Assembly: GCA_025363655.1 (NCBI GenBank)
Contig: JANYDK010000127.1
Span: forward strand, 1-64,000
Direction: 5' to 3'
Source of the DNA: Deltaproteobacteria bacterium
GTDB taxonomy: Bacteria > Myxococcota_A > Polyangia > Polyangiales > JADJMO01
DNA length: 64,000 nucleotides
The position numbers and the translations under genes were made by a program. Of this stretch, positions 1,742 through 15,165 are shown piece by piece. Position 1 is the first letter of the stretch, and every line of letters begins with the position of its first letter. The notes below the pieces were generated by a model that was given only the letters and a program-made list of their open reading frames with translations, had not been told where the DNA came from and did not search any database.

Positions 1742-3208
1742 ATGAAAACGGCTGCTGCGGTTGACGCGACCGGTGCGCGGCTCGACACCGACATCATGTC
1801 TCGGTCGTCGTCTCGTGACGCGCTCGCCGCGAAGATCCTCCTCGTAGACGACGATCCCGGCGTGCTCTTCACGTTGCGCGAGATCCTGCTCGACCGGGGC
1901 TTCGAGGTGGTGGCGACCGCTTCCCCCGAGGAAGCTCTCAGCAAGCTCGAGGGTGTACGCGCGGCGCTCGTCGACTACGCGATGCCGACGATGGACGGGC
2001 TCACCTTGCTCGCGGCGATTCACGAGCGCGACGAGGCGATTCCGGTGATCGTGCTCACCGCGCATGGCTCGGAGCGGCTCGCCGTCGCGGCGATGAAGGC
2101 GGGCGCACACGACTACCTGACGAAGCCCTTCGACATCGACGAAGTGGCGATCGCCATCGAGCGCGCCGTCGAGCTCCGACGACTCCGCGAGACCAACCTC
2201 CGTCTCAAGGCCGAAGCAGCGATCGGGCGGAAAATCGTGGGCGATTCGGCGCCGATGCGGCGTCTTCTCGAGGCCGTCGGGCGCGTCGCCGGCAAGGACA
2301 TCACCGTGCTCGTGCGTGGCGAGACGGGCACCGGCAAGGAGCTGATCGCGACGCTGCTCCACGCGCAGAGTCACCGTTCGCAGAAGCCGCTGGTGCGCTT
2401 CAACTGCGCGGCCATTCCTGGTGAGCTCGCCGAGGCCGAGCTCTTCGGACACGCCAAGGGTGCCTTCACGGGCGCGCAGCAAGCTCGACGTGGATTCTTC
2501 GCGCTCGCCGACGGGGGGACGCTGGTGCTCGACGAGGTGGGTGAGCTCTCGCTCGCGGTGCAGGCCAAGCTCCTTCGCGCCATCCAAGAAGGAGAGATCC
2601 AGCCGGTCGGCTCGGGTCGGGTCGACAAAATCGACGTTCGCATCGTCGCCTCGACCAACCGCGATCTGCTCGCCGAGGCGCAGGCCGGACGCTTCCGCGA
2701 AGACCTCTACTATCGCCTCGCCGTCGTCGAGCTGGTGGTGCCGCCGCTGCGCGATCGACGTGAAGACATCGCCTCGCTCGTCGAAGAGATGGTGCGCCGA
2801 TACGCCGAGAAATTCGGCTCCAATGCGCTTCGGCTCTCGCCTCGGCTGATCGAGCACCTCGAGAAGAAGCCGTGGCCGGGCAACGTGCGGCAGCTCGAGA
2901 ACACCATCGCGCGACTGGTCGCGCTCGCCGATGGGGACACACTCGATCTATCCGATCTATCCGATCTCTCCGAGCCGGACAGTCCCGATGGGCCCGGCGG
3001 GGTGCAGGTGGTTTCGTCGGGGCAGGCGAGCGAAGCGGGGACGCCGGAGGACGGGCCGTCGTTGAAAGAGCAGGTCGAGGCCTTCGAGCGAGGCCTCATC
3101 GTGCGCGCGCTCGCGACCAGCGGCGGCAACCAGAGCGAGGCCGCGCGTCGTCTCGGCACCAGTCGACCGACGTTGATCGACAAGATGAGGCGGTATCGTC
3201 TGGGTTGA
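1742..3208 (+). CDS. Sigma-54-dependent NtrC-family response regulator
   Basis: The product is 488 aa. An N-terminal receiver (about 31-150) has the acidic pair in LVDDDPG, phosphoacceptor Asp78 (ALVDYAMP) and the K of LTKPF. The AAA+ domain (about 165-400) has Walker A GETGTGKE (193-200), an intact GAFTGA sigma-54 loop (240-245) and Walker B LVLDEVG. The C-terminus is a Fis-type helix-turn-helix (GGNQSEAARRLGTSRPT). An intact GAFTGA predicts activation of sigma-54 promoters. ATG 1742 opens the frame; ATG 1796 (MSRSSSRD) would still include the whole receiver. No partner histidine kinase is adjacent. The linker before the HTH carries a 9-bp triplication (SDLSDLSDL). Confidence 0.93.
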   Translation: MKTAAAVDATGARLDTDIMSRSSSRDALAAKILLVDDDPGVLFTLREILLDRGFEVVATASPEEALSKLEGVRAALVDYAMPTMDGLTLLAAIHERDEAIPVIVLTAHGSERLAVAAMKAGAHDYLTKPFDIDEVAIAIERAVELRRLRETNLRLKAEAAIGRKIVGDSAPMRRLLEAVGRVAGKDITVLVRGETGTGKELIATLLHAQSHRSQKPLVRFNCAAIPGELAEAELFGHAKGAFTGAQQARRGFFALADGGTLVLDEVGELSLAVQAKLLRAIQEGEIQPVGSGRVDKIDVRIVASTNRDLLAEAQAGRFREDLYYRLAVVELVVPPLRDRREDIASLVEEMVRRYAEKFGSNALRLSPRLIEHLEKKPWPGNVRQLENTIARLVALADGDTLDLSDLSDLSEPDSPDGPGGVQVVSSGQASEAGTPEDGPSLKEQVEAFERGLIVRALATSGGNQSEAARRLGTSRPTLIDKMRRYRLG

Positions 3209-4064: not shown

Positions 4065-4088
4065 GTCACTGAGGCACTCACCGAGTCA
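4057..4088. repeat. 8-bp tandem repeat across the 3' ends of two converging genes
   Basis: GTCACTGA occurs twice exactly (4057-4064, 4065-4072) and is followed by two degenerate units (GGCACTCA, CCGAGTCA) in the same 8-bp register. The first unit supplies the stop codon of the lipoprotein gene, and the last reaches the end of the oppositely oriented kinase gene at 4086. Confidence 0.65.
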
Positions 4089-5813
4089 CGCGCGCGCGGC
4101 CATACGCTCGCCGAGGTCGATGCCGACCGTTTGACCGAGTGGCGAGGCGCTCGGGCTTCGGCGTCGTTTCGTGTCCTCGGCGTTGTCCGACCACCATCGC
4201 GAAGCTTGGTCGTCGGTCCAAACGGCGACCTCGCCACGTTCGACGAGCGCGCGCAAGGAAGCCCCGAGCGCCGCCGCCGAGGCCGGCCTCTTCGCCGGAT
4301 CTTTCTCCAAACACTGCAAAACAAGGGCTTCGAGCGCCGACGGCAGCTCGCGCTTTCCGCGTACCGAGGGCAGCTCGACGTCGGCGTGAAGGTGCTTCGC
4401 GCAGATTTCGAGGAGCGTGGGGGCATCGAAGACCGGCGTGCCGGTGAGCAGCCAGTAGGCGACCGCGCCGAGCGCGTAGAGATCTGCCCGCGCATCGATG
4501 GTGTCGGGCGCGACGATCGCTTCGGGCGCGAGGTAGAGCGGCGTGCCGGTGATGACGTTGCCGGCGGAGCTGGCGCTCGCCGAAGTCGACGAAGGCTTCA
4601 GCTCCTTGACGAGGCCGAAATCGACCACTTTGGCGAAATCGCTGACCCCGCCACGCTGGCAGAGGATGACGTTGGCCGGCTTGATGTCGCGATGGATGAG
4701 CCCCGCCGCGTGCGCTTCGCTGAGCGCGCCGGTGACTTGGACGAGCACGTGGAGCACGCGCGCCGCTGGTTGAGGACCCCGTCGCTCGACGAGCACCTCG
4801 AGATCGAGGCCCTCGAGGTACTCCATCGCGTAGTAGAAGATGCCATCGGGCGTGCGACCGTAGTCGTAGATGGCGACGGTGTTGGGGTGGGTGAGGAGCG
4901 CAGTGAGCTGCACTTCGCGCTCGAAACGCTGGAGCGCACGGGCTCCGGCGCGCTCGGCCGGCAAGAGCTTGATCGCGGTCGGCCGGCGCAACATCGCGTG
5001 GCTCGCGCGATAGACGGCGCCCATGCCGCCCTCGCCGATCTTCTCGACGAGCGTGTACTGTCCGAGGCGCATCGCCTGCTCGAGGTGCCGCTGGAGGCCG
5101 TAAATGACGCGGGAAATCAGGCCCGTGAGGCCGACGGTGATCATCGACCAGGTCGCGGCGGCGATGAGGATGATCGGGAGCGGCGGGATGCCTCCCTTGT
5201 CGAAATCGAGCGTCACGAGCGCCGGATCGACGCCGCGCGAGTAGACGATGCAAGCGCCGGCGATGAGGAACGCGCTCGCGAGCAAGCCGATGATGAGGGT
5301 TCGTCCGAGCGTGCTCGGCACCATCGCCGCGCGGCTCACCAGGATGATGTTGATGGTGAGGAGCATCTCGATTTCCGGGCGCGTGATCGCCGGGGAGCCG
5401 ATGAGCATGGTCGCCAGTCCGGCGACGATGACGACCGTGCCGGTGACGTCGAAGAAGCTGAGGGCGACGATCGAGCGCGGCATGCTCCGCATCCAAAGCC
5501 ACAGCGCGGTGGCTCCGAGGGTGATCGTCAGGTGGACGATGCGCATCAAGTCGATGAGATCGGTCGGCAGGCCGTGATGGCCGAAGATGAGGACCATCAC
5601 GATGTGGATGACGTAGAAAGTCCACCCGATGGTCGCGCAGATCGCGAAGAAGAGGCCGAGTCGCCGCTGAAAGAGCGCGCGCGCCTCGTCGGGGGTTCCG
5701 GGGATCGTCCCCAGCCCAAAAAGATCGGACCATCTCCGCCGCGTCGGCCGCGTCGGCTTCGAGAGCGGCGCGAACGGGAGAGTGTCGCTGACGTGGCGCG
5801 GTGGCTCGTTCAT
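4086..5813 (-). CDS. Membrane-domain Ser/Thr protein kinase at the end of the ton operon
   Basis: The product is 575 aa from ATG 5813. In-frame ATGs at 5855, 5879 and 5891 would lengthen it; 5891 lies only 5 nt after the tonB stop. Residues of about 50-240 form roughly six hydrophobic segments. They are followed by a linker and a Hanks-type kinase domain (about 253-510): GEGGMG glycine loop, TAIKLL lysine, HRDIKPAN catalytic loop, DFG (VVDFGLVK) and a GTPLYLAPE activation segment, all intact. The tail ends in a W...WW...TVGIDL motif shared with the kinase at 11912. The membrane half precedes the kinase, unlike PknB-type enzymes with C-terminal sensors. The position suggests it signals together with the Ton system. 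Confidence 0.88.
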   Translation of the reverse strand: MNEPPRHVSDTLPFAPLSKPTRPTRRRWSDLFGLGTIPGTPDEARALFQRRLGLFFAICATIGWTFYVIHIVMVLIFGHHGLPTDLIDLMRIVHLTITLGATALWLWMRSMPRSIVALSFFDVTGTVVIVAGLATMLIGSPAITRPEIEMLLTINIILVSRAAMVPSTLGRTLIIGLLASAFLIAGACIVYSRGVDPALVTLDFDKGGIPPLPIILIAAATWSMITVGLTGLISRVIYGLQRHLEQAMRLGQYTLVEKIGEGGMGAVYRASHAMLRRPTAIKLLPAERAGARALQRFEREVQLTALLTHPNTVAIYDYGRTPDGIFYYAMEYLEGLDLEVLVERRGPQPAARVLHVLVQVTGALSEAHAAGLIHRDIKPANVILCQRGGVSDFAKVVDFGLVKELKPSSTSASASSAGNVITGTPLYLAPEAIVAPDTIDARADLYALGAVAYWLLTGTPVFDAPTLLEICAKHLHADVELPSVRGKRELPSALEALVLQCLEKDPAKRPASAAALGASLRALVERGEVAVWTDDQASRWWSDNAEDTKRRRSPSASPLGQTVGIDLGERMAARA

Positions 5814-5896
5814 CGGAGGTCTCACTTCGTCCTCGGGATGGACGAGGCGGAGCATAGAGACATCACGCGCGGCGCGCATCGGTGCGCTCATGACGA

Positions 5897-6781
5897 TTAC
5901 CTGGTGAAGCGCACGTTGACGGTCGATGAGGCCAAGGCCGCTTGTCCGTTCTTGTCGAGGCCGGGGCTGAACGTCTTCGCGAGGAGACACGTGCGCGCCG
6001 CTTGGCCGAAGCCCTGACCGGCGGGCGACTCTTTCACGACCGAGGCGCTGCTGACGCCACCATCGGGACGAACGACGACGACGAGCGTGACGACGGCGTT
6101 GTCATCGTCGGCGATGCCTGGAAAATAGCCTCTGCATGCATCGGGTTGATCGAGCCGCGGGGCTTGGCTGAGGTTTGCCCCGGAGAGAATCTTCGGCGCA
6201 GCGATGGCGGGAGGACCCGCGAGCGTCGTCGCCGCTTTCGGTGCGGGGGCGGTGCCGACACCACCGGCCTTCGCGCCCTCGAGACCGACCTCGGCGGTGC
6301 CACCTTGGGCGACGACGCCGCTGCCGTAGCTCGTGCCGTTCGGATCGGTGACGAAGGAGTAGGTCTCGTCGGCTTTGTCGGCATGCGGATCGGGAGGCGC
6401 GGTGAGGACGTTGCCGGCCTTGGCCGCGGCGGGGGCTTTGGCGAGCGCGGGTGCGGGCGCCGGCGCAGGCGCAGGCGCGAGCGTCGGCGTGGGCGTGGGG
6501 TCGGGCTCCGGTGCGGGCGGGGGCGGGGGCTCGGCGGCTGGCGGAGCGGGGGCGAATTCGACTTCCATCGGAGGAGCGTCGGCCGCTACGGGAGGAGGCG
6601 CGCGACCGACGGCGAAGGCGACGCTGGCGTGGAGCGCGATCGCGGCGACGATGGTGGAGCCGAGAATGAACGAGCGACGACCGGGAGTTCTCTCGGCGAA
6701 CGCGAGGACGCGGGCGAGGGCGGGCTCGTCATTCGCTGCGAGGTGCGCGATCGACGGGATGGATTGGATCGCGGTGTTCAT
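5897..6781 (-). CDS. tonB: TonB energy-transducing protein
   Basis: The product is 294 aa. One N-terminal membrane anchor (about 38-60, SFILGSTIVAAIALHASVAFA) precedes a long Pro/Ala-rich periplasmic spacer with PTPTPT and APAPAP runs. The C-terminal domain has beta-strand features of TonB (VVTLVVVVRPDGGVSSASVV, then CLLAKTFSPG). TonB couples the inner-membrane proton-motive complex to outer-membrane receptors. Two cysteines (DACRGYF, RTCLLAK) in the C-terminal domain may form a disulfide. The gene starts 1 nt beyond the exbD stop, and the divergent receptor at 8320 is the obvious partner. Confidence 0.9.
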   Translation of the reverse strand: MNTAIQSIPSIAHLAANDEPALARVLAFAERTPGRRSFILGSTIVAAIALHASVAFAVGRAPPPVAADAPPMEVEFAPAPPAAEPPPPPAPEPDPTPTPTLAPAPAPAPAPALAKAPAAAKAGNVLTAPPDPHADKADETYSFVTDPNGTSYGSGVVAQGGTAEVGLEGAKAGGVGTAPAPKAATTLAGPPAIAAPKILSGANLSQAPRLDQPDACRGYFPGIADDDNAVVTLVVVVRPDGGVSSASVVKESPAGQGFGQAARTCLLAKTFSPGLDKNGQAALASSTVNVRFTR

Positions 6782-6782
6782 G

Positions 6783-7193
6783 TCAGGTCTTCGTCTTCTC
6801 GGCCGCGAACGCGACCTTGGTGATGCCGACGCGACGAAGCTCGTCGACGACGTGGAGCACCTTGCCGTGGTTCACCGCCGCCGAGGCTTGGATGACGGTG
6901 CGGAGCTCGTGGTTCTTGGCGTAGGCAGCTTGCGCCTTCGCTTCGAGCTCGGCGTCGCTGCCGATGGGACTGCCATCGGCCGAGAGCCGACCGTTCTCGT
7001 CGATGCCGACCGAGAAGATCGTCTGCGTTTCGCCGGCGGTAGCCGCCTTCGGGAGATCCATCGGGATCGCCTGGTTCACGATCAGCTTGGCGGTGACCAT
7101 GAAGATGATGAGGAGCACGAGCGTGATGTCGACCAGTGGCGTGACGTTGATGCCGTTGATGCCGTCGTCGTCGTTCGATGCGTTCTGGGCCAT
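6783..7193 (-). CDS. exbD: ExbD/TolR-family proton-channel subunit
   Basis: The product is 136 aa, normal for the family. It has one transmembrane helix near the N-terminus with the signature ...INVTPLVDITLVLLIIFMV; the Asp in this segment is the conserved proton-path residue. The periplasmic domain follows (KAQAAYAKNHELRTVIQAS, HGKVLHVVDELRRVGI), typical of ExbD. It is expected to work with the ExbB-like protein upstream and TonB downstream, in exbB-exbD-tonB order with a 60-nt gap to exbB. Confidence 0.93.
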   Translation of the reverse strand: MAQNASNDDDGINGINVTPLVDITLVLLIIFMVTAKLIVNQAIPMDLPKAATAGETQTIFSVGIDENGRLSADGSPIGSDAELEAKAQAAYAKNHELRTVIQASAAVNHGKVLHVVDELRRVGITKVAFAAEKTKT

Positions 7194-7253: not shown

Positions 7254-8015
7254 TCAGGAGTGCGCGGGGATGCTCGGTCGGCTCGCGCGGAGCGACGCAC
7301 GGCTGCTCTCGACCTCGGTCTCGCGGGTGTCGCGCAGGTTCTCGTTCGTGCGGCGCGCGCGCGGCTCGGGCTTGCCCTTGAGGTGCGCGAGGAGCACACG
7401 TGACAGCGCTTCGGTGTTGCTCACCGTGGCCTTGATTCGGCGTTGAAAGTAGTTGTAGGCGACGACCGCGGGGATCGCGACGGCGAGGCCGATGGCAGTG
7501 GCGACGAGGGCCTCGGCGATGCTCGACATGACGGCGGCAGGGGCTGCGCCGCCCGCAGTGGCCGCGGCCGCAGCGCCGTCACCGAGGTGCTCGAAGGCCT
7601 CGATGATGCCGATGACGGTGCCGAAGAGACCGATGAAGGGAGCGTTGTTGCCGAGGGTGCCGAGATAGGCGAGCCGGCGCTCGAGCTTCATGCGCTGGAG
7701 GGCGGTCGCGCCGGCCATTGCTTCGGCGGCAGCGTCGGCGCCGCGATCGGCTTCGACGAGCCCTGCGACGACGACGGCAGCCTCGGCGGATTTCGACTTG
7801 CTCATCGCCGCACGCGCGCCGGTGAGGTCGCCGTTGCGGAGACGCTGGTGGAGCTCGCGCGCCAGCTTCTCGAGGTCGTCCTTGATGCTGCTGAAGAAGA
7901 CGATGCGCTCGAGGATGATCGCGGCGCTGATCACGCTGAGCGCGATCATCAGATACATGATGGGCGAGGCGCCCAGGGTGAGCATGATGCTCTTGGCTTT
8001 GGCGACGATGTTCAT
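7254..8015 (-). CDS. exbB: ExbB/TolQ/MotA-family proton-channel protein
   Basis: The product is 253 aa. ATG 8015 was chosen because it is preceded by AGAGGAG at good spacing; the frame stays open to 8087 without support. There are three transmembrane segments: one near the N-terminus (PIMYLMIALSVISAAIILE) and two later (NNAPFIGLFGTVIGIIEAF and SIAEALVATAIGLAVAIPAV), the last two carrying the family signature. It forms the pentameric channel that powers TonB. It is the first gene of the leftward arm, facing the palindrome cluster at 8168-8210. Confidence 0.93.
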   Translation of the reverse strand: MNIVAKAKSIMLTLGASPIMYLMIALSVISAAIILERIVFFSSIKDDLEKLARELHQRLRNGDLTGARAAMSKSKSAEAAVVVAGLVEADRGADAAAEAMAGATALQRMKLERRLAYLGTLGNNAPFIGLFGTVIGIIEAFEHLGDGAAAAATAGGAAPAAVMSSIAEALVATAIGLAVAIPAVVAYNYFQRRIKATVSNTEALSRVLLAHLKGKPEPRARRTNENLRDTRETEVESSRASLRASRPSIPAHS

Positions 8016-8319
8016 GGGAGCGTCTCCTCTTCGAGGTCGGGTTGCGACGGCGGTTCGGACGAGCCCTTCAGCACGGGTCGTGCCCACCGCCGCTTCGCCG
8101 CCGAATCAGCCAGGAATTGCGACGTCTGATCGCGATCGCGGTCTGACGGGCGACACGTCCGCGCAGCGTCCGGACACGGGCGACTGTCCGGACGCCGGAC
8201 AATTGTCCGGGCCGCTGGACAAGGTCGGACGACCACGCGCCGCGGACGTGGAGTCGAGAAAAAAAGCCTGATCGTCGACTTCGACGACGCTGGCGCGCTC
8301 GATGCTTAGGCGCTGCGAC
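8016..8319. promoter_or_regulatory. Divergent intergenic region between exbB and the TonB-dependent receptor
   Basis: This 304-bp gap separates the two arms of the Ton locus, so both promoters should lie here. Visible are a 10-bp palindrome CGCGATCGCG at 8131-8140, three clustered GTCCGGAC-type palindromes at 8168-8210 (listed separately) and related half-sites (GTCGGAC near 8224; GTCCG at 8158). No convincing sigma-70 or -24/-12 promoter was recognised, and no gene. Confidence 0.6.
8168..8210. promoter_or_regulatory. Cluster of three palindromes, candidate operator
   Basis: GTCCGGAC occurs at 8168-8175 and again at 8186-8193, followed by the perfect 16-bp palindrome CCGGACAATTGTCCGG at 8195-8210. 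The centres are 18 and 13 bp apart. The repeated core TGTCCGG/CCGGACA suggests a dimeric regulator binding several sites in the shared promoter region of the divergent Ton transport arms. The regulator is not identifiable from the sequence. Confidence 0.6.
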
Positions 8320-10980
8320 ATGACCACCCCCTTCCGCCGCGCGCGCTTCGTCGCCGCGCTAGCGTTCACGCTCGGCGCCTTCGCTATCGTCGAACCGTCG
8401 GTCGCGATCGCGCAGAACGCTCCTCTCGATCCCGCCGCCCTCGTCGCGCCTCGGCTCCTCGAGAACGTGGAGCCCGTGTATCCCGAGTCGCAGAAGGCGG
8501 CCGCGGTCAAAGCGACGGTGCACCTCACGCTCACGCTCGATGCGATGGGCAAGGTCACCGAAGCCGTCGTCGCCACCTCCGGCGGGCCGGACTTCGACGG
8601 CGCCGCGCTCGAAGCCGCGAAGCGTCTCGTCTTCTCCCCCGCGTCGAAGGGCGGAAAGCCGATTCCCTCGAAGATCCCCTTCCGCTTCGACTTCGCTTAC
8701 GAAGCGCCGCCGCCGCCGGTCGCCGTCGACGTCGCGCCGAAGACGGCCGCCGTGCCCAAGGTCGGCGTGCTCAAGGGCCTCGTGAAGACGCCCACCGAAG
8801 AGCCGCTCCCGGGTGCGCAGGTCACCCTCACCCGCGTGGGTGGCGGAAAGGGCGAAGACGGAAAATCGGTCGTCGTCGCCCAGGTGTCGACCGACGCCAA
8901 AGGGGCCTTCGTCTTTCCCCCTTTGCCGGCCGGCCAATATCACGTCGAGGTGGTCGCCGAAGGCTTCGATCGCTATGCGGTCGACGAGGACGTGGCGCCG
9001 GACGTCGAGTCGAGCGTCGTCTATCGCACCGCGCTCGCGCCCTCCACCGATGGCGTCGTCGACGTCATCGTCAAAGGGGAAAAGCCTCCCCGCGAGGTCA
9101 CCCGCCGGACGATGGAGCGCGAAGAAATCCTCAAAGCTCCGGGCACCGGCGGTGACGCGCTCCGCTCGCTCGAGAACATGCCCGGCGTGGCGCGCCCGCC
9201 CGGTCTCATGGGTCTTCTCATCGTCCGCGGCTCGGCGCCGACCGATACGCTGGTATTGGTCGACGGCACCGAAATCCCGATTGCCTATCACTTCGGCGGG
9301 CTCACCTCGGTGATTCCCACCGAGATGCTCGAGCGCATCGACTTCTATCCCGGCAACTTCGGTGTCGAATACGGCCGCGTCATGGGCGGCATGGTCGACG
9401 TCGGGATCCGCTCTCCGAAGAAGGACGGATATCACGGACTCTTCCAAATCGATCTCATCGACGCCCGCCTCATGGCCGAGGGACCGATCACCGAGAAAAC
9501 CCGCTTCCTCGTCGGTGCGCGCCGCAGCTGGCTCGACGCCTGGCTCCCCGGCGTCCTCCGCAAGACCGGCGCCGACGTCACTGCCGCTCCCGTTTATTAC
9601 GATTGGCAAGCAGTCCTCGAGCACGACATCTCCGACAAGACGACGGGGAGGCTCCTCTTCATGGGCTCGGACGATCGCCTCGAGCTGATTCTCAATTCGG
9701 CGAGCGAGTCCGATCCCGGCTTCGGCGGCGACATCGGCAATCGCACCAAGTTCTGGCGTCTCCAAGCCCGATTCGACACCAAGGCCTCGGAGGCGGTGCG
9801 TGCGATCAACACGGTGTCGATCGGCCACGACGGCGTCTTCTTCAACTTCGGCGATCGCTTTCTCAACCTCGACTTGCACCCGATCAGCGCCCGCTCCGAT
9901 TTGCGCGCCAAGCTCTCCAAGGAAATCACCTGCATCGCCGGTCTCGATCTCAACTTCACGCCCTACGACGTCAGCTACAAGTTCCCGCCCTTCCGCCAAG
10001 ACGGCGTCATCGACGGGCCGACGTTCGCGCGGCAGGCCAACCTCATCAGCGGCAAGTCGACGCTCTTCCGACCGGGCGCCTACGTGATGCTCGACCTCGC
10101 GCCGGTCAAGGGTCTCAAGCTCCTCCCCGGAGTGCGCGTCGACTACTCGCAAGACACCGCCAGCTGGACGGCCGATCCGCGATTTGCCGCGCGCTTCGAC
10201 ATCGTTCGTGAGTATCCCCGCACCACCCTCAAGGGGGGTGTCGGCCTCTTTCATCAACCGCCGCAGCCGCAAGAGAGTCTCGTGCCCTTCGGCAACAAGG
10301 GATTGCACAGCAATCAGGCGATTCACTACAGCCTCGGCTTCGAGCAGGAGCTCAGCCGTCACGTCGAAATCTCCATGGAGGGCTTCTACAAAGACCTCCG
10401 CAGCCTCGTCATCCAGGAGGCCGCCGAGTCGTCCTCGGCCAACGGCGTCAAATACGTCAACAAGGGCGTCGGTCGCATCTACGGTGGCGAAGCGCTGATT
10501 CGTTGGAAGCCCGATGGCCAGTTCTTCGGATGGCTCGCCTTCACGCTCTCGCGCAGTGAGCGCAAAGACGATCCCTCGCAGTCCTACCAGCTCTTCCAAT
10601 ACGATCAGACTCACATCCTCACCGCGCTCGGCAGCTACAAGCTCGGCCGCGGTTGGGAGCTGGGGATGCGCTTCCGCTACGTCACGGGGAGCCCCGACAC
10701 TGCCTATCTCGGCGGGCTCGTCGACTACGACGCGGGCGCCTACAACCCGAACCAAGGCCCCCGTTGGGGCACCCGCCTCGGCTCCTACCACACGCTCGAC
10801 GTGCGGGTCGAGAAGACCTGGCAGTTCTCCACTTGGAAGCTCTCGGCCTATCTCGATTTGCGCAACGCTTACAACCACAAGAACCCCGAAGCCGTGTCCT
10901 ACAACTACGATTACACCCAATCGAAGTCCGTCGCCGGACTCCCCATTCTGCCGGTCTTCGGCGTGCGAGGTGAGCTGTGA
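8320..10980 (+). CDS. TonB-dependent outer-membrane receptor carrying its own TonB C-terminal domain
   Basis: The product is 886 aa from ATG 8320; ATG 8302 is an alternative. A signal peptide (about 1-32, cut after SVAIAQ) is followed by a TonB C-terminal-type domain (about 48-126; VEPVYPESQKAA... AVVATSGGPDFDGAALEAAK). Next are a carboxypeptidase-regulatory-like domain (about 148-235; GLVKTPTEEPLPGAQVTL), a plug (about 255-375; LRSLENMPGV, VRGSAPTDTLVLVDG) and a beta-barrel. The protein ends in GVRGEL, not the usual terminal Phe/Trp. Known receptors import siderophores, cobalamin, glycans or peptides; the substrate here is not predictable. It overlaps the next gene by 4 bp. Confidence 0.9.
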   Translation: MTTPFRRARFVAALAFTLGAFAIVEPSVAIAQNAPLDPAALVAPRLLENVEPVYPESQKAAAVKATVHLTLTLDAMGKVTEAVVATSGGPDFDGAALEAAKRLVFSPASKGGKPIPSKIPFRFDFAYEAPPPPVAVDVAPKTAAVPKVGVLKGLVKTPTEEPLPGAQVTLTRVGGGKGEDGKSVVVAQVSTDAKGAFVFPPLPAGQYHVEVVAEGFDRYAVDEDVAPDVESSVVYRTALAPSTDGVVDVIVKGEKPPREVTRRTMEREEILKAPGTGGDALRSLENMPGVARPPGLMGLLIVRGSAPTDTLVLVDGTEIPIAYHFGGLTSVIPTEMLERIDFYPGNFGVEYGRVMGGMVDVGIRSPKKDGYHGLFQIDLIDARLMAEGPITEKTRFLVGARRSWLDAWLPGVLRKTGADVTAAPVYYDWQAVLEHDISDKTTGRLLFMGSDDRLELILNSASESDPGFGGDIGNRTKFWRLQARFDTKASEAVRAINTVSIGHDGVFFNFGDRFLNLDLHPISARSDLRAKLSKEITCIAGLDLNFTPYDVSYKFPPFRQDGVIDGPTFARQANLISGKSTLFRPGAYVMLDLAPVKGLKLLPGVRVDYSQDTASWTADPRFAARFDIVREYPRTTLKGGVGLFHQPPQPQESLVPFGNKGLHSNQAIHYSLGFEQELSRHVEISMEGFYKDLRSLVIQEAAESSSANGVKYVNKGVGRIYGGEALIRWKPDGQFFGWLAFTLSRSERKDDPSQSYQLFQYDQTHILTALGSYKLGRGWELGMRFRYVTGSPDTAYLGGLVDYDAGAYNPNQGPRWGTRLGSYHTLDVRVEKTWQFSTWKLSAYLDLRNAYNHKNPEAVSYNYDYTQSKSVAGLPILPVFGVRGEL

Positions 10981-11909
10981 AAGCCTCTTCTTCCAAGGTC
11001 ATTCCCCTGGCGGCGCTCGCCCTCGTGGGTGGTCTCCTCGCTTGCGGCAGCGACTTCGATCCGGCCTCGCGCGTCTCGACCCTCCGAGTGCTGGCCGTCG
11101 GTGCCGATCAGCCCTACGCCCATCCGGGAGAATCGGTGCACCTCGACGCCCTCGCGGCTGACCCTGCGGGGAGACCGATCACCTATGGCTGGGCCTATTG
11201 CGTGAATCCCACGCAGTCGACGCCACAAGGTTGCTTCGAGCAATATCTGACCGACCGCGCCCAGGGGAAAGGGCCGGCCTTCACCATCGGCCTCGACGTC
11301 ACCAAGTTCCAAGTCGACGTGCCCGCCGACTTCCTCTCGACGCTTCCGTCGTCGGCGCGCACGAACGCGATGATCGGCGTCATCACCGTCGCCTGCCCGG
11401 GCACCCTCACCGCGGTGCCCTCCAACGGACTCCCCTATACGTGCACCGATCCGAGCGGCCGCGTCCTCGGCGTGCACGACGTCATCGGGGGAATGAAGCG
11501 CATCTTCGTCCGCAGCAAAGATCGCAATCAGAACCCGGTGATTTCCAAGGTGACGTGGGACGGCGTCGATTGGCCGGCGACGGAGACGAAGACGGTCTCG
11601 GCCTGCGACGTCGACACCAACACCTATGACGATTGCGACGCCGAAAAGCACGATGTCGCGGTGGTCGCCAGCTCCGAATCGGTCGAGTCCGGCGTCGACG
11701 AGTTCGGCAGCGGCTTCGAGGAGCAGGTCGTCGTCCAATATTACGCCGACGAAGGCCTCTTCAAAGATTCGGTGCGCATCACCTCGAAGCCGGAGAACGG
11801 CTTCGTCGCCCGCAAGAGCTCGCGCGGCAAGACGCTGACGCTATGGCTGGTGCTCCGCGACGATCGCGGCGGAGTCACCTGGACGACCCGAAAGGTGACG
11901 GTGCGCTGA
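10977..11909 (+). CDS. Lipoprotein partner of the TonB-dependent receptor
   Basis: The product is 310 aa with a GTG start inside the receptor's stop (GTGA, 4-bp overlap), which indicates translational coupling. The signal peptide ends at GGLLAC (lipidated Cys23). The mature part is rich in beta-strand segments (STLRVLAVGADQPYAHPGE resembles an Ig-like or cadherin-like fold) and has several cysteines. Its position after a receptor, like SusD-type or surface-binding lipoproteins elsewhere, suggests ligand capture or barrel gating, but no sequence resemblance to SusD was seen. Function is inferred only from context. Confidence 0.85.
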   Translation: MKASSSKVIPLAALALVGGLLACGSDFDPASRVSTLRVLAVGADQPYAHPGESVHLDALAADPAGRPITYGWAYCVNPTQSTPQGCFEQYLTDRAQGKGPAFTIGLDVTKFQVDVPADFLSTLPSSARTNAMIGVITVACPGTLTAVPSNGLPYTCTDPSGRVLGVHDVIGGMKRIFVRSKDRNQNPVISKVTWDGVDWPATETKTVSACDVDTNTYDDCDAEKHDVAVVASSESVESGVDEFGSGFEEQVVVQYYADEGLFKDSVRITSKPENGFVARKSSRGKTLTLWLVLRDDRGGVTWTTRKVTVR

Positions 11910-11911
11910 GC

Positions 11912-13699
11912 ATGTTGGGCATGGACGCCGAGCTCGCTGCTAGTCTGCCTGTGGTGCGAGGCGAACAGGTGGCTATCGCAGGCGGGAGAGACGGGAAACA
12001 CGCGAGCGACGCGAGAACCTCGGCTCTCCCAGAAGATCAGGCGCTCCTCCAGTCGCGCGTCGGTCGCTTCGGGCTCGTCGCCGGGATGCTCGGTTTCGCC
12101 TCGCTCCTCTTCCGCGTTCCCGCCTACGTGCTTCACAGTCACTTCGATTGGAGCTGCTTCTTCGAGCCGTCGATGGCCTGGCACGAGCTCAGCGTCGTCA
12201 TCCTCCTCGGCGGATCGCTCTTCGCCTCGGGGAAGCCGCGCGCGGTGTGGGTGCTTCGGCTCGTCGAGGCGGGCGCGGTCATCGGCAGTTGTTTCGCATA
12301 CGGGGCGATGGGGCGCGCGCTCTTCTTCTTGAAGACGGCGCCCCACATGGCGGACACCGGACTCTCGCCGGCGGTGGTCGGCCTCATCGTCAACGCCGCG
12401 ATGAGCTACACCGTCCTCGCTCGTGCGGTGTTCGTCCCCAGCTCGCCGATGCGCACCGGAGTGGTCACCCTCCTCGCGGGGGGTGGATTCTTCTTCGTCG
12501 TCGGCGTCTCTTCGGGCGGGGTCGACTCCTTCGGATATCGCAACACGGTATTCGGCGCCGGAATCGGGCATTTGCTTTGGTGGTCACTCTCGGTCGGCCT
12601 GGCGGTGGCAGCTTCGCGCGTCATCTTCGGCCTCCGCAAAGAGGCGCGGATGGCGCAACAATATGGGCAATACACGCTGGCCGAGAAAATCGGGGAAGGC
12701 GGCATGGGCGTCGTCTATCGCGCGCGTCACGCGCTCCTCCGGAGGCCGACGGCCCTCAAGCTCCTTCCGCCCGAGCGCATGGGTCGTCTCTCGCTCGATC
12801 GCTTCGAGCGTGAAGTGCAATTGACGGCGACGCTGACGCACCCCAACACCGTGCGCGTCTTCGACTACGGACGCACCCCTGAGGGTATATTTTACTATGC
12901 GATGGAGTTCCTCGACGGCGAGACGCTCCAAGACATCGTCGACGCCACCGGTCCGATGCCTCCCGCCCGCGTCGCCCACGTCCTCCGTCAGGTGGCCGGC
13001 GCGCTCGTCGAGGCGCACGACGCGGGGCTCATCCACCGCGATCTCAAGCCCGCCAACGTCATGCTCTGCACGCAGGGAGGCATCGACGACTTCGCCAAGC
13101 TCCTCGATCTCGGCCTCGCCCACGACGCCCGCGAACCGAAGCTCGGCAAGTCGCGTGCGGTCGATCGCGGCGATCGCGGCGATCGCGGCGGGACCGAACG
13201 CACGGTGAGCGTCGATGCCCAGCCCTTCCCCAGCGGCACGCCGCTCTATCTCGCGCCCGAGGCGATTCAGGCGAACGGGCAGGTGACGGCAAGAAGCGAT
13301 CTCTACGCGCTCGGCGCCGTCGCCTACTTTCTGCTCACCGGGCGCGAGGTCTTCTCCGGCGCCACCTCGGTCGAGGTCTTCGCCAAGCACGTCTGGTCGC
13401 CGCCCGAGCTTCCGAGCACGCTCTTGCCTTTGGGCACGCTCGACGACGCGCGCGCGCGAGGGCTCGAGCTCTTGATCATGAGCTGCCTCGAAAAAGAGCC
13501 GGCCGCGAGACCCGAGAGCGCACGCGAGCTCCTCGGGCGCCTCGACGAATCGGGAATTCCCGCGTGGAAAGAGGCGGATGCGCACGCCTTCTGGACCGCC
13601 CGTGCCACCGTGGTTCGCGCCCATCGTCAGAAGCAGCTCGCCGCCTTCACGCCCCCGGCGCATCGCACGTTGGCGATCGACTTCGCCGGACGCGGGTAG
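11912..13699 (+). CDS. Membrane-domain Ser/Thr protein kinase, paralogue of the kinase at 4086
   Basis: The product is 595 aa from ATG 11912, 2 nt after the previous stop. Residues of about 50-240 form about six membrane segments. The kinase domain starts near 254 (QYTLAEKIGEGGMGVVYRA) with the TALKLL lysine, HRDLKPAN catalytic loop and GTPLYLAPE segment. The magnesium motif is DLG, not DFG (LLDLGLAHD), a variant also seen in active bacterial kinases. A 9-bp microrepeat encodes RGDRGDRG after the DLG motif. The tail (W...FW...TLAIDF) matches that of the kinase at 4086. It closes the receptor-lipoprotein part of the rightward arm. Confidence 0.9.
   Translation: MLGMDAELAASLPVVRGEQVAIAGGRDGKHASDARTSALPEDQALLQSRVGRFGLVAGMLGFASLLFRVPAYVLHSHFDWSCFFEPSMAWHELSVVILLGGSLFASGKPRAVWVLRLVEAGAVIGSCFAYGAMGRALFFLKTAPHMADTGLSPAVVGLIVNAAMSYTVLARAVFVPSSPMRTGVVTLLAGGGFFFVVGVSSGGVDSFGYRNTVFGAGIGHLLWWSLSVGLAVAASRVIFGLRKEARMAQQYGQYTLAEKIGEGGMGVVYRARHALLRRPTALKLLPPERMGRLSLDRFEREVQLTATLTHPNTVRVFDYGRTPEGIFYYAMEFLDGETLQDIVDATGPMPPARVAHVLRQVAGALVEAHDAGLIHRDLKPANVMLCTQGGIDDFAKLLDLGLAHDAREPKLGKSRAVDRGDRGDRGGTERTVSVDAQPFPSGTPLYLAPEAIQANGQVTARSDLYALGAVAYFLLTGREVFSGATSVEVFAKHVWSPPELPSTLLPLGTLDDARARGLELLIMSCLEKEPAARPESARELLGRLDESGIPAWKEADAHAFWTARATVVRAHRQKQLAAFTPPAHRTLAIDFAGRG
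13161..13190 (+). repeat. 9-bp microrepeat inside the kinase gene
   Basis: The unit GATCGCGGC is repeated in tandem about three times in the insert between the DLG motif and the activation segment, encoding Arg-Gly-Asp triplets. The length is a multiple of three, so copy-number change would keep the frame. Confidence 0.7.
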
Positions 13700-13713
13700 G
13701 ATGGAGTCTCGTC

Positions 13714-15165
13714 ATGCAGATGCAGAAGGTGCTCATCGTCGACGATCAACCGGCCGTGCGGACGGCGCTCGAGATCCTCTTCGAGGTCCACGACATCGAC
13801 GCGGTGTCGGTGCCATCGCCCGACGCTGCGCTCGCACGCATCGCCAAGGGCGACGTCGCCTGCGTCGTGCAGGACATGAACTTCACCGAGAACACCACCT
13901 CGGGTGACGAGGGCACCGCGCTCTTCCGCCGCATCCGCGCCATCGATCCGACCCTCCCGGTGCTCTTGATGACCGCGTGGAGCTCGCTCGAGACCGCGGT
14001 GATGCTCGTCAAAGAAGGCGCCGCCGACTACCTGAGCAAACCGTGGGACGACCAGAAGGTCGTCGCCACCGTGCGCAACCTCTTGCGAATGCGCGCGCTC
14101 GAGGACGAGAACGAGCAGCTCCGCCGTGATCGTGATCGCGCACGACGTGAAATCGTCGACAAAAACGAGCTTTGCGGCCTCGTCTACGAGAGCGAGGCGA
14201 TGCATCGGGTGGTGTCCCTCGCGGTCAACGTCGCCGCCGCCGACGTGCCCGTGCTCATCACCGGTCCGAACGGCGCAGGCAAAGAGAAGCTCGCTGAAAT
14301 CATCCAGGCCAACTCTCGACGAAAGTCCAAGCCGTTCATCCGCGTCAACGCTGGCGCGCTCCCCGAGAACCTGATGGAGGCCGAGCTCTTCGGCGCCGAA
14401 GCGGGCGCGTTCACCGGGGCCACCAAGGCGAGGCAAGGTCGATTCGAGGCAGCCGACGGCGGGACGATCTTCCTCGACGAGGTCGGAAACCTGCCCCTGA
14501 CCGGTCAGATGAAGCTGCTTCGCGTCTTGCAGACGGGCGAATACCAGCGTCTCGGCAGCAACACCCAGCGCCGCGCCGACGTCCGCGTGATCAGCGCCAC
14601 CAACGCCGACCTGCCGCGCTGCATCGCCGACAAGACCTTCCGCGAAGATCTGTTCTTCCGCCTCAACGTCATCGAGCTCCGCCTCCCGCCGCTCGCCGAG
14701 CGCCGCGAAGATCTCCTCCCGCTCGCGCGTCATCTCTTGGCGTCGTTCGGCGTCTCGGAGGGCGGCGAGCCGTTCTCCCTCGGAGAGAGCGCGCGCAGCG
14801 CCATCCTCGCCTACGCCTTTCCCGGAAACGTGCGCGAGCTACAAAACAAGCTCCGCCGTGCGACGCTGGTGGCCAAGGGGCCCGTGCTCGGTCGGGACGA
14901 TCTCGGCTTCGACGACGCACCCGCGCGCAGCTCGACCACCCCGCCGAGCGCCAACACCGCCTCGAGCATCAGCCCCTCCAGCTCGGGAGCCGTCGACGAC
15001 GAGGGCGGGCCCGATCGCGCGGCCATCGAAGACGCGCTCTTGCGTGCGGCGGGCAACGTCTCGAAGGCGGCGAATGAAATCGGCGTCAGCCGTCAGGCCC
15101 TCTACCGTCGGATGGATCGTCTCGGCATCGTCCTCGAGCGACGTCCGCGTGGCACAGGCGCATGA
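13714..15165 (+). CDS. Sigma-54-dependent NtrC-family response regulator
   Basis: The product is 483 aa from ATG 13714, 14 nt after the kinase gene. The receiver (1-125) has phosphoacceptor Asp54 (VVQDMNF), the Thr of LLMTAW and Lys of LSKPW. The AAA+ part (about 155-385) has Walker A GPNGAGKE, an intact GAFTGA loop and Walker B IFLDEVGN. The C-terminal Fis-type HTH (NVSKAANEIGVSRQALYRRM) follows a Ser/Pro-rich linker. It should activate sigma-54 promoters when phosphorylated. The histidine kinase gene starts 44 nt downstream, so the two are likely cognate partners. Confidence 0.94.
   Translation: MQMQKVLIVDDQPAVRTALEILFEVHDIDAVSVPSPDAALARIAKGDVACVVQDMNFTENTTSGDEGTALFRRIRAIDPTLPVLLMTAWSSLETAVMLVKEGAADYLSKPWDDQKVVATVRNLLRMRALEDENEQLRRDRDRARREIVDKNELCGLVYESEAMHRVVSLAVNVAAADVPVLITGPNGAGKEKLAEIIQANSRRKSKPFIRVNAGALPENLMEAELFGAEAGAFTGATKARQGRFEAADGGTIFLDEVGNLPLTGQMKLLRVLQTGEYQRLGSNTQRRADVRVISATNADLPRCIADKTFREDLFFRLNVIELRLPPLAERREDLLPLARHLLASFGVSEGGEPFSLGESARSAILAYAFPGNVRELQNKLRRATLVAKGPVLGRDDLGFDDAPARSSTTPPSANTASSISPSSSGAVDDEGGPDRAAIEDALLRAAGNVSKAANEIGVSRQALYRRMDRLGIVLERRPRGTGA

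Follow-up and report, generated by a model that had tools for sequence, protein, structure and literature searches.

We report that a TonB-dependent receptor encoded in a 64,000-nucleotide stretch of DNA from a Deltaproteobacteria bacterium (the window) is a member of a TonB-dependent transporter (TBDT) family of Myxococcota whose receptors carry an N-terminal periplasmic domain with the fold of a TonB C-terminal domain (CTD), as shown by computation. Receptors bearing this domain (TonB_C) look like a conserved, little-noticed myxobacterial arrangement. Moreover, a downstream lipoprotein gene recurs with these receptors, and the gene order exbB-exbD-tonB-receptor-lipoprotein is found in several families; both observations are new here. 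As to function, we give an even chance to the reading that the receptor and the lipoprotein are partners in a Myxococcota transport system that has a Ton motor of its own, where the receptor-borne TonB-fold domain would tune the engagement of TonB.

The receptor and its N-terminal domain

The receptor gene and its parts are as follows (positions in the window, strand, description):
8302..10980, +, TonB-dependent receptor, 892 aa, with TonB_C, CarboxypepD_reg, TonB box, plug and barrel
8302..8412, +, signal peptide of the receptor (residues 1-37; cleavage between AIA and Q placed by eye)
8470..8691, +, TonB C-terminal-type domain PF03544 (residues 57-130; Pfam, NCBIfam and an AlphaFold2 block with pLDDT 89-97)
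8770..8997, +, CarboxypepD_reg domain PF13620 (residues 157-232; Pfam)
9061..9078, +, putative TonB box DVIVKG (residues 254-259; motif by eye)
9109..9387, +, plug domain PF07715 (residues 270-362; Pfam)
9397..10977, +, beta-barrel (residues 366-892; fold from the model, no PF00593 match)

A preliminary description of this DNA had the reading frame right but began the gene at 8320, which is the second ATG; the open reading frame starts at 8302. It placed a TonB C-terminal-type domain after the signal peptide at residues 48-126, which is about right: the Pfam profile PF03544 covers residues 57-130 (51.4 bits, cut-off 24.6, E 1.5e-13) and the NCBIfam model TIGR01352 (tonB_Cterm) also matches the receptor (47.2 bits, cut-off 27.1). 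The carboxypeptidase-like domain, plug and barrel that it listed were likewise recovered, the first two with Pfam scores of 50 bits (CarboxypepD_reg, cut-off 32.3) and 37.4 bits (Plug, cut-off 23.9) and the barrel by modelling; of the two profiles proposed for the N-terminus PF03544 held, while PF13715 stayed below its cut-off (20.5 vs 32.2 bits) and PF13620 matches instead. The two parts that define a TonB-dependent transporter, plug and TBDT barrel, are thus present, by Pfam and by model, respectively. The Pfam search of the window receptor gave no match to the barrel family PF00593, which is matched in three other fused receptors (L010, L016 and L163), and the STN domain (PF07660) is absent from its Pfam matches. 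A TonB box with an acidic first residue, like the candidate DVIVKG, is present in 62 of 74 aligned receptors.

In sequence comparison the solved structures closest to the receptor N-terminus are TonB CTDs (2k9k, 6i97 and 6fip). The AlphaFold2 model of receptor residues 41-892 (74 rows) has a mean pLDDT of 89.3 with TonB_C folded confidently (pLDDT 89-97), and matches TBDTs, e.g. BtuB, FyuA and PirA (best Z 36.3 over 544 residues, 2.8 Å). While the window's own domain was modelled within this full-length receptor, the test of the TonB CTD fold rests on the copy in a relative (L087), which lacks CarboxypepD and whose N-terminus is the shortest natural construct modelled (53 rows). With the L087 domain model, TonB CTDs occupied ranks 1-9 in Foldseek, and the best match was 6i97_D, the TonB CTD of Pseudomonas aeruginosa in complex with FoxA (TM by target 0.84, 1.6 Å, E 4.9e-6). 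We consider it confirmed that the N-terminal domain of the receptor is a genuine TonB C-terminal-type domain.

The same models bear on the possibility of a lock in the resting receptor, in which its TonB box would be bound by TonB_C through strand addition and so be hidden from TonB until substrate frees it. The best match of the L087 model being a receptor-bound TonB CTD agrees with such a lock, as do the TonB box kept just downstream of the domain and the FpvA signalling domain, which pairs with its own TonB box according to the available part of PMC11658791. However, the box (residues 214-219 of the full-length model) sits inside a stretch with pLDDT <50 (208-222), and in the L087 model it is unpaired and not a strand. 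Strand addition in cis is therefore predicted by neither single-chain AlphaFold2 model (74 and 53 rows), nor is the proposed competition, if it means binding of the receptor's own box; we count this as weak negative evidence. Together with the absence of an Arg of the generic TonB motif (see below), this makes the lock unlikely.

The adjacent Ton motor and the downstream lipoprotein gene

The genes next to the receptor are:
5897..6781, -, separate TonB with an N-terminal membrane segment with His, a Pro-rich region and a divergent CTD with two Cys (5903-6097)
6783..7193, -, ExbD/TolR (Pfam, 90.1 bits)
7254..8087, -, ExbB/TolQ (Pfam, 103.6 bits)
10977..11909, +, lipoprotein of 310 aa with lipobox LLAC; its GTG start codon overlaps the stop of the receptor gene

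A complete exbB-exbD-tonB set is thus divergent from the receptor, the CTD of its TonB scoring just under the PF03544 cut-off (24.1 vs 24.6 bits). The two Cys of this CTD (in CRGYFP and AARTC) are common to the TonBs of L087, L091 and L109, a two-Cys CTD is also present in a second TonB of the source genome (L019), and the pair in the window TonB may form a disulfide. Two similar membrane Ser/Thr kinases, named by eye, flank the Ton locus (4086-5990 on the minus strand and about 11900-13699 on the plus strand), and near each of them is an NtrC-type response regulator, named by eye from translations (1742-3208 and 13564-15165).

These neighbours argue against the suggestion in the preliminary description that the receptor-borne domain replaces the contact of the separate TonB, or takes over its task. 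The one argument for it is the homology of the domain. Yet the receptor adjoins complete exbBD and a separate TonB that has a membrane segment, such sets are found at other loci too, the TonB box is kept, and no membrane anchor follows the signal peptide: a 19-residue hydrophobic stretch starting at residue 16 (mean 1.85) is the only strong one in the receptor N-terminus (next best later, 1.06), and a hydropathy scan found no hydrophobic segment as inner-membrane anchor between signal peptide and plug. We regard replacement as extremely improbable.

Among 80 relatives an ExbB homologue was found in the fetched flanks of 13, with many flanks ending early; exbB is divergent from and adjacent to the receptor in nine of the 80 loci and on the same strand in four more. 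Minicystis rosea (L101) has these genes arranged as receptor, lipoprotein, exbB, exbD, tonB. The order exbB-exbD-tonB-receptor-lipoprotein on one strand occurs on another contig of the source genome (C116; L010:6579-12385) and at all six loci inspected in other genomes (L163-L168), in one of which ExbD was not detected; these seven tonB-receptor operons were picked because tonB and receptor were listed as adjacent and give no frequency estimate. Finally, three genomes of another family (f15) have the lipoprotein homologue immediately upstream of a receptor in which CarboxypepD matches twice.

In 68 of 79 loci (L121 was left out, being too short) the receptor gene is directly followed by a same-strand lipoprotein homologue, as detected with an HMM trained on 46 sequences that were largely the adjacent matches themselves. 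The start overlaps the receptor gene in 37 of these 68, and 56 have a lipobox-like motif. The 11 loci that lack a homologue directly downstream comprise seven of one clade of the domain tree together with L106, L145, L151 and L152. An alignment of 18 members shows six invariant Cys, one of them that of the lipobox, and a seventh that is nearly invariant, and the C-terminal end of the family is RGGVTW-like. No Pfam family was above its cut-off for the window lipoprotein, the 18 members gave no SusD-type match and three weak families in all, and a PDB sequence search with the lipoprotein profile gave no match. In the source genome the lipoprotein adjoins all five fused receptors that contain CarboxypepD, and is not beside the three other fused receptors and two sibling receptors examined. 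The lipoprotein family is unannotated in Pfam and accompanies these receptors in many Myxococcota.

The SusCD and BtuB-BtuG systems of Bacteroidetes also couple a TBDT gene to a lipoprotein gene. The pairing of a transporter gene with a lipoprotein gene is common to these systems and the window; unlike in those systems, the window lipoprotein has neither a Pfam family above cut-off nor a PDB sequence match.

Distribution of the domain and its relation to free TonBs

Profile search of the source genome gave 16 PF03544 and 18 Plug matches. Of the 18 plug proteins ten lack TonB_C and eight carry it N-terminally; five of these eight also contain CarboxypepD and three do not. PF03544 is above its cut-off in all seven other fused receptors scanned. 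The eight fused receptors span more than one receptor family, since siblings without the domain exist (L026, L037 and L039). On contig C21 the TonB_C receptor L016, whose plug family is a different one, lies about 2 kb from the divergently oriented sibling L026.

In a scan of named genomes, using an HMM from five receptors of the source genome, TonB_C was present in 76 of 80 relatives, and the four without it (L083, L095, L129 and L138) all begin at a contig edge. The titles of the 80 are Myxococcota, Deltaproteobacteria or related, with one "Proteobacteria" and one "uncultured bacterium". CarboxypepD is missing in seven of the 76. Among 95 sampled genomes of the phylum at least 60 have a match spanning TonB_C to plug, and in 15 the N-terminal profile matched nothing at E 1e-10; residues 41-263 of the receptor had no match in the plasmid collection. 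The extra domain, which had been described as unusual, is present, but it extends well beyond this one gene: the architecture is widespread in Myxococcota. With half of the 16 PF03544 matches of the genome lying in receptor frames, and considering the relatives that carry it, the domain is more than chance, and we reject a chance or misread motif, against which the profile, the fold and these relatives speak.

Mean pairwise identity over 74 full-length rows is highest in the plug (0.67), nearly equal in TonB_C (0.46) and the barrel (0.45), and lowest in CarboxypepD (0.30), where the alignment omits the four relatives that start at a contig edge and three others (L117, L134 and L151) in which TonB_C is cut. 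TonB_C is conserved like the barrel and more than CarboxypepD, which we read as purifying selection, and is therefore probably kept for function. That it is a neutral passenger, an old fusion retained by inertia, would fit the ten plug proteins of the same genome that do without it, but is very improbable given that the domain equals the barrel in conservation and is found also in receptors without CarboxypepD.

The receptor-borne domain shares the CTD fold and the YP motif with TonB energy transducers; in contrast to these it is N-terminal, lacks a membrane anchor, is on the outer-membrane partner and is without the motif Arg. RxQP(Q/E)YP is given as the motif of generic TonBs in the accessible text of PMC13253070, and its Arg, five before the Tyr, was found in none of 75 scorable receptor domains vs 20 of 26 free TonBs; the TonBs adjoining fused receptors also lack it (0/7). 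Without this Arg the receptor domain may treat a box differently from a TonB CTD. In a domain tree (118 rows, 89 columns) the receptor-borne domains group together, with three changes vs a shuffled mean of 33.5 (0/500 as low), and the TonBs of the fused loci fall apart from them. This tree has many unresolved forks and long branches that meet among the locus TonBs, and its free TonBs are mainly the best PF03544 scorers, i.e. a biased sample. A recent duplication of the adjacent tonB was considered as the origin of the domain and rejected, as the receptor-borne domains cluster apart from the locus TonBs.

Known systems and possible roles of the domain

Positions 1-104 of the NCBIfam MxcH model (NF038079; myxochelin receptor) match receptor residues 49-152 with 81.6 bits, far below the cut-off of 925 bits, so the window receptor is not an MxcH. 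A member from another genome that is above this cut-off (L160) has the domain, which falls in the receptor-borne group of the tree, but CarboxypepD was not found in it, unlike in the window receptor. In the MxcH-like receptors L161 and L162, which are below the cut-off, the domain is absent, and this we count against the tuning role. With Oar-type TBDTs of Myxococcus, as presented in the accessible sections of PMC6434023, the window receptor has in common a CarboxypepD_reg domain before the plug, a TonB box and a linked Ton cluster, and it has TonB_C in addition. The survey of 34,893 TBDTs in that paper, as far as its available text goes, lists five N-terminal architectures, none with PF03544, and required PF00593, which the window receptor does not match. 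The architecture is embedded in the NCBIfam MxcH model, yet absent from the five N-terminal architectures of the survey. No paper describing a TonB_C domain in a receptor was found in the open literature examined; subscription papers, e.g. on the myxochelin regulon, may do so.

Transducers such as FpvA, FecA and FoxA also have a small extra domain before the TonB box, whereas the window receptor is without STN and has no FecR gene on its contig. The domain could act like the STN of FecA and FpvA and signal to an inner-membrane regulator, in line with its position before the TonB box and with neither of the two STN matches of the genome being at a plug-protein position. None of the ten FecR-domain matches of the genome is on the window's contig (C16), however, with one FecR-domain frame (C38:121390-121566) listed about 2.4 kb from another TonB_C receptor, and a signalling role is quite unlikely. 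It is improbable, too, that the domain is an envelope anchor which holds the receptor at the motor or the wall by binding to peptidoglycan, ExbD or some other periplasmic protein; in its favour, links with peptidoglycan have been described for the TonB CTD and the periplasmic domain of ExbD.

In the tuning role that we prefer, the separate membrane-anchored TonB, driven by ExbBD, would pull the plug via the receptor's TonB box, while the lipoprotein would capture substrate at the outer membrane. The TonB_C domain, on a flexible linker upstream of the box, would be an accessory docking or gating module; lacking an inner-membrane anchor it would itself transmit no force, and it might set when and which TonB engages the box, via the TonB CTD or nearby motor parts. 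A precedent for docking is FoxA, where the stretch just before the TonB box binds TonB constitutively, as reported in the accessible part of PMC6699858. Two deletions count against it: removal of most of the FoxA signalling domain left TonB binding unchanged (PMC6699858, same part), and PopC secretion by Oar persists after loss of the N-terminal extension (PMC6434023, available text), so N-terminal extensions can be dispensable.

Dimerisation of the receptor domain with TonB, as raised in the preliminary description, is possible. A specific form of it, to which we give a small but real chance, is that the domain and the CTD of the cognate TonB pair by strand exchange, which would pre-dock the motor on its own transporter, so that a TonB-TonB contact besides the box would set force or specificity. 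If true, such CTD-CTD pairing would give Ton engagement across Myxococcota a second mode that has so far gone undescribed.

A possible foothold for study is Myxococcus xanthus MXAN_0821, a TBDT which, according to the available text of PMC6434023, is clustered with a complete Ton system and whose deletion failed; MXAN_0820 is named there as TonB, and with a TonB beside the TBDT the arrangement may be similar to that of the operon described above. A TonB-fold receptor with its cognate motor and lipoprotein in one locus allows a direct test of how an outer-membrane transporter chooses one TonB among several.
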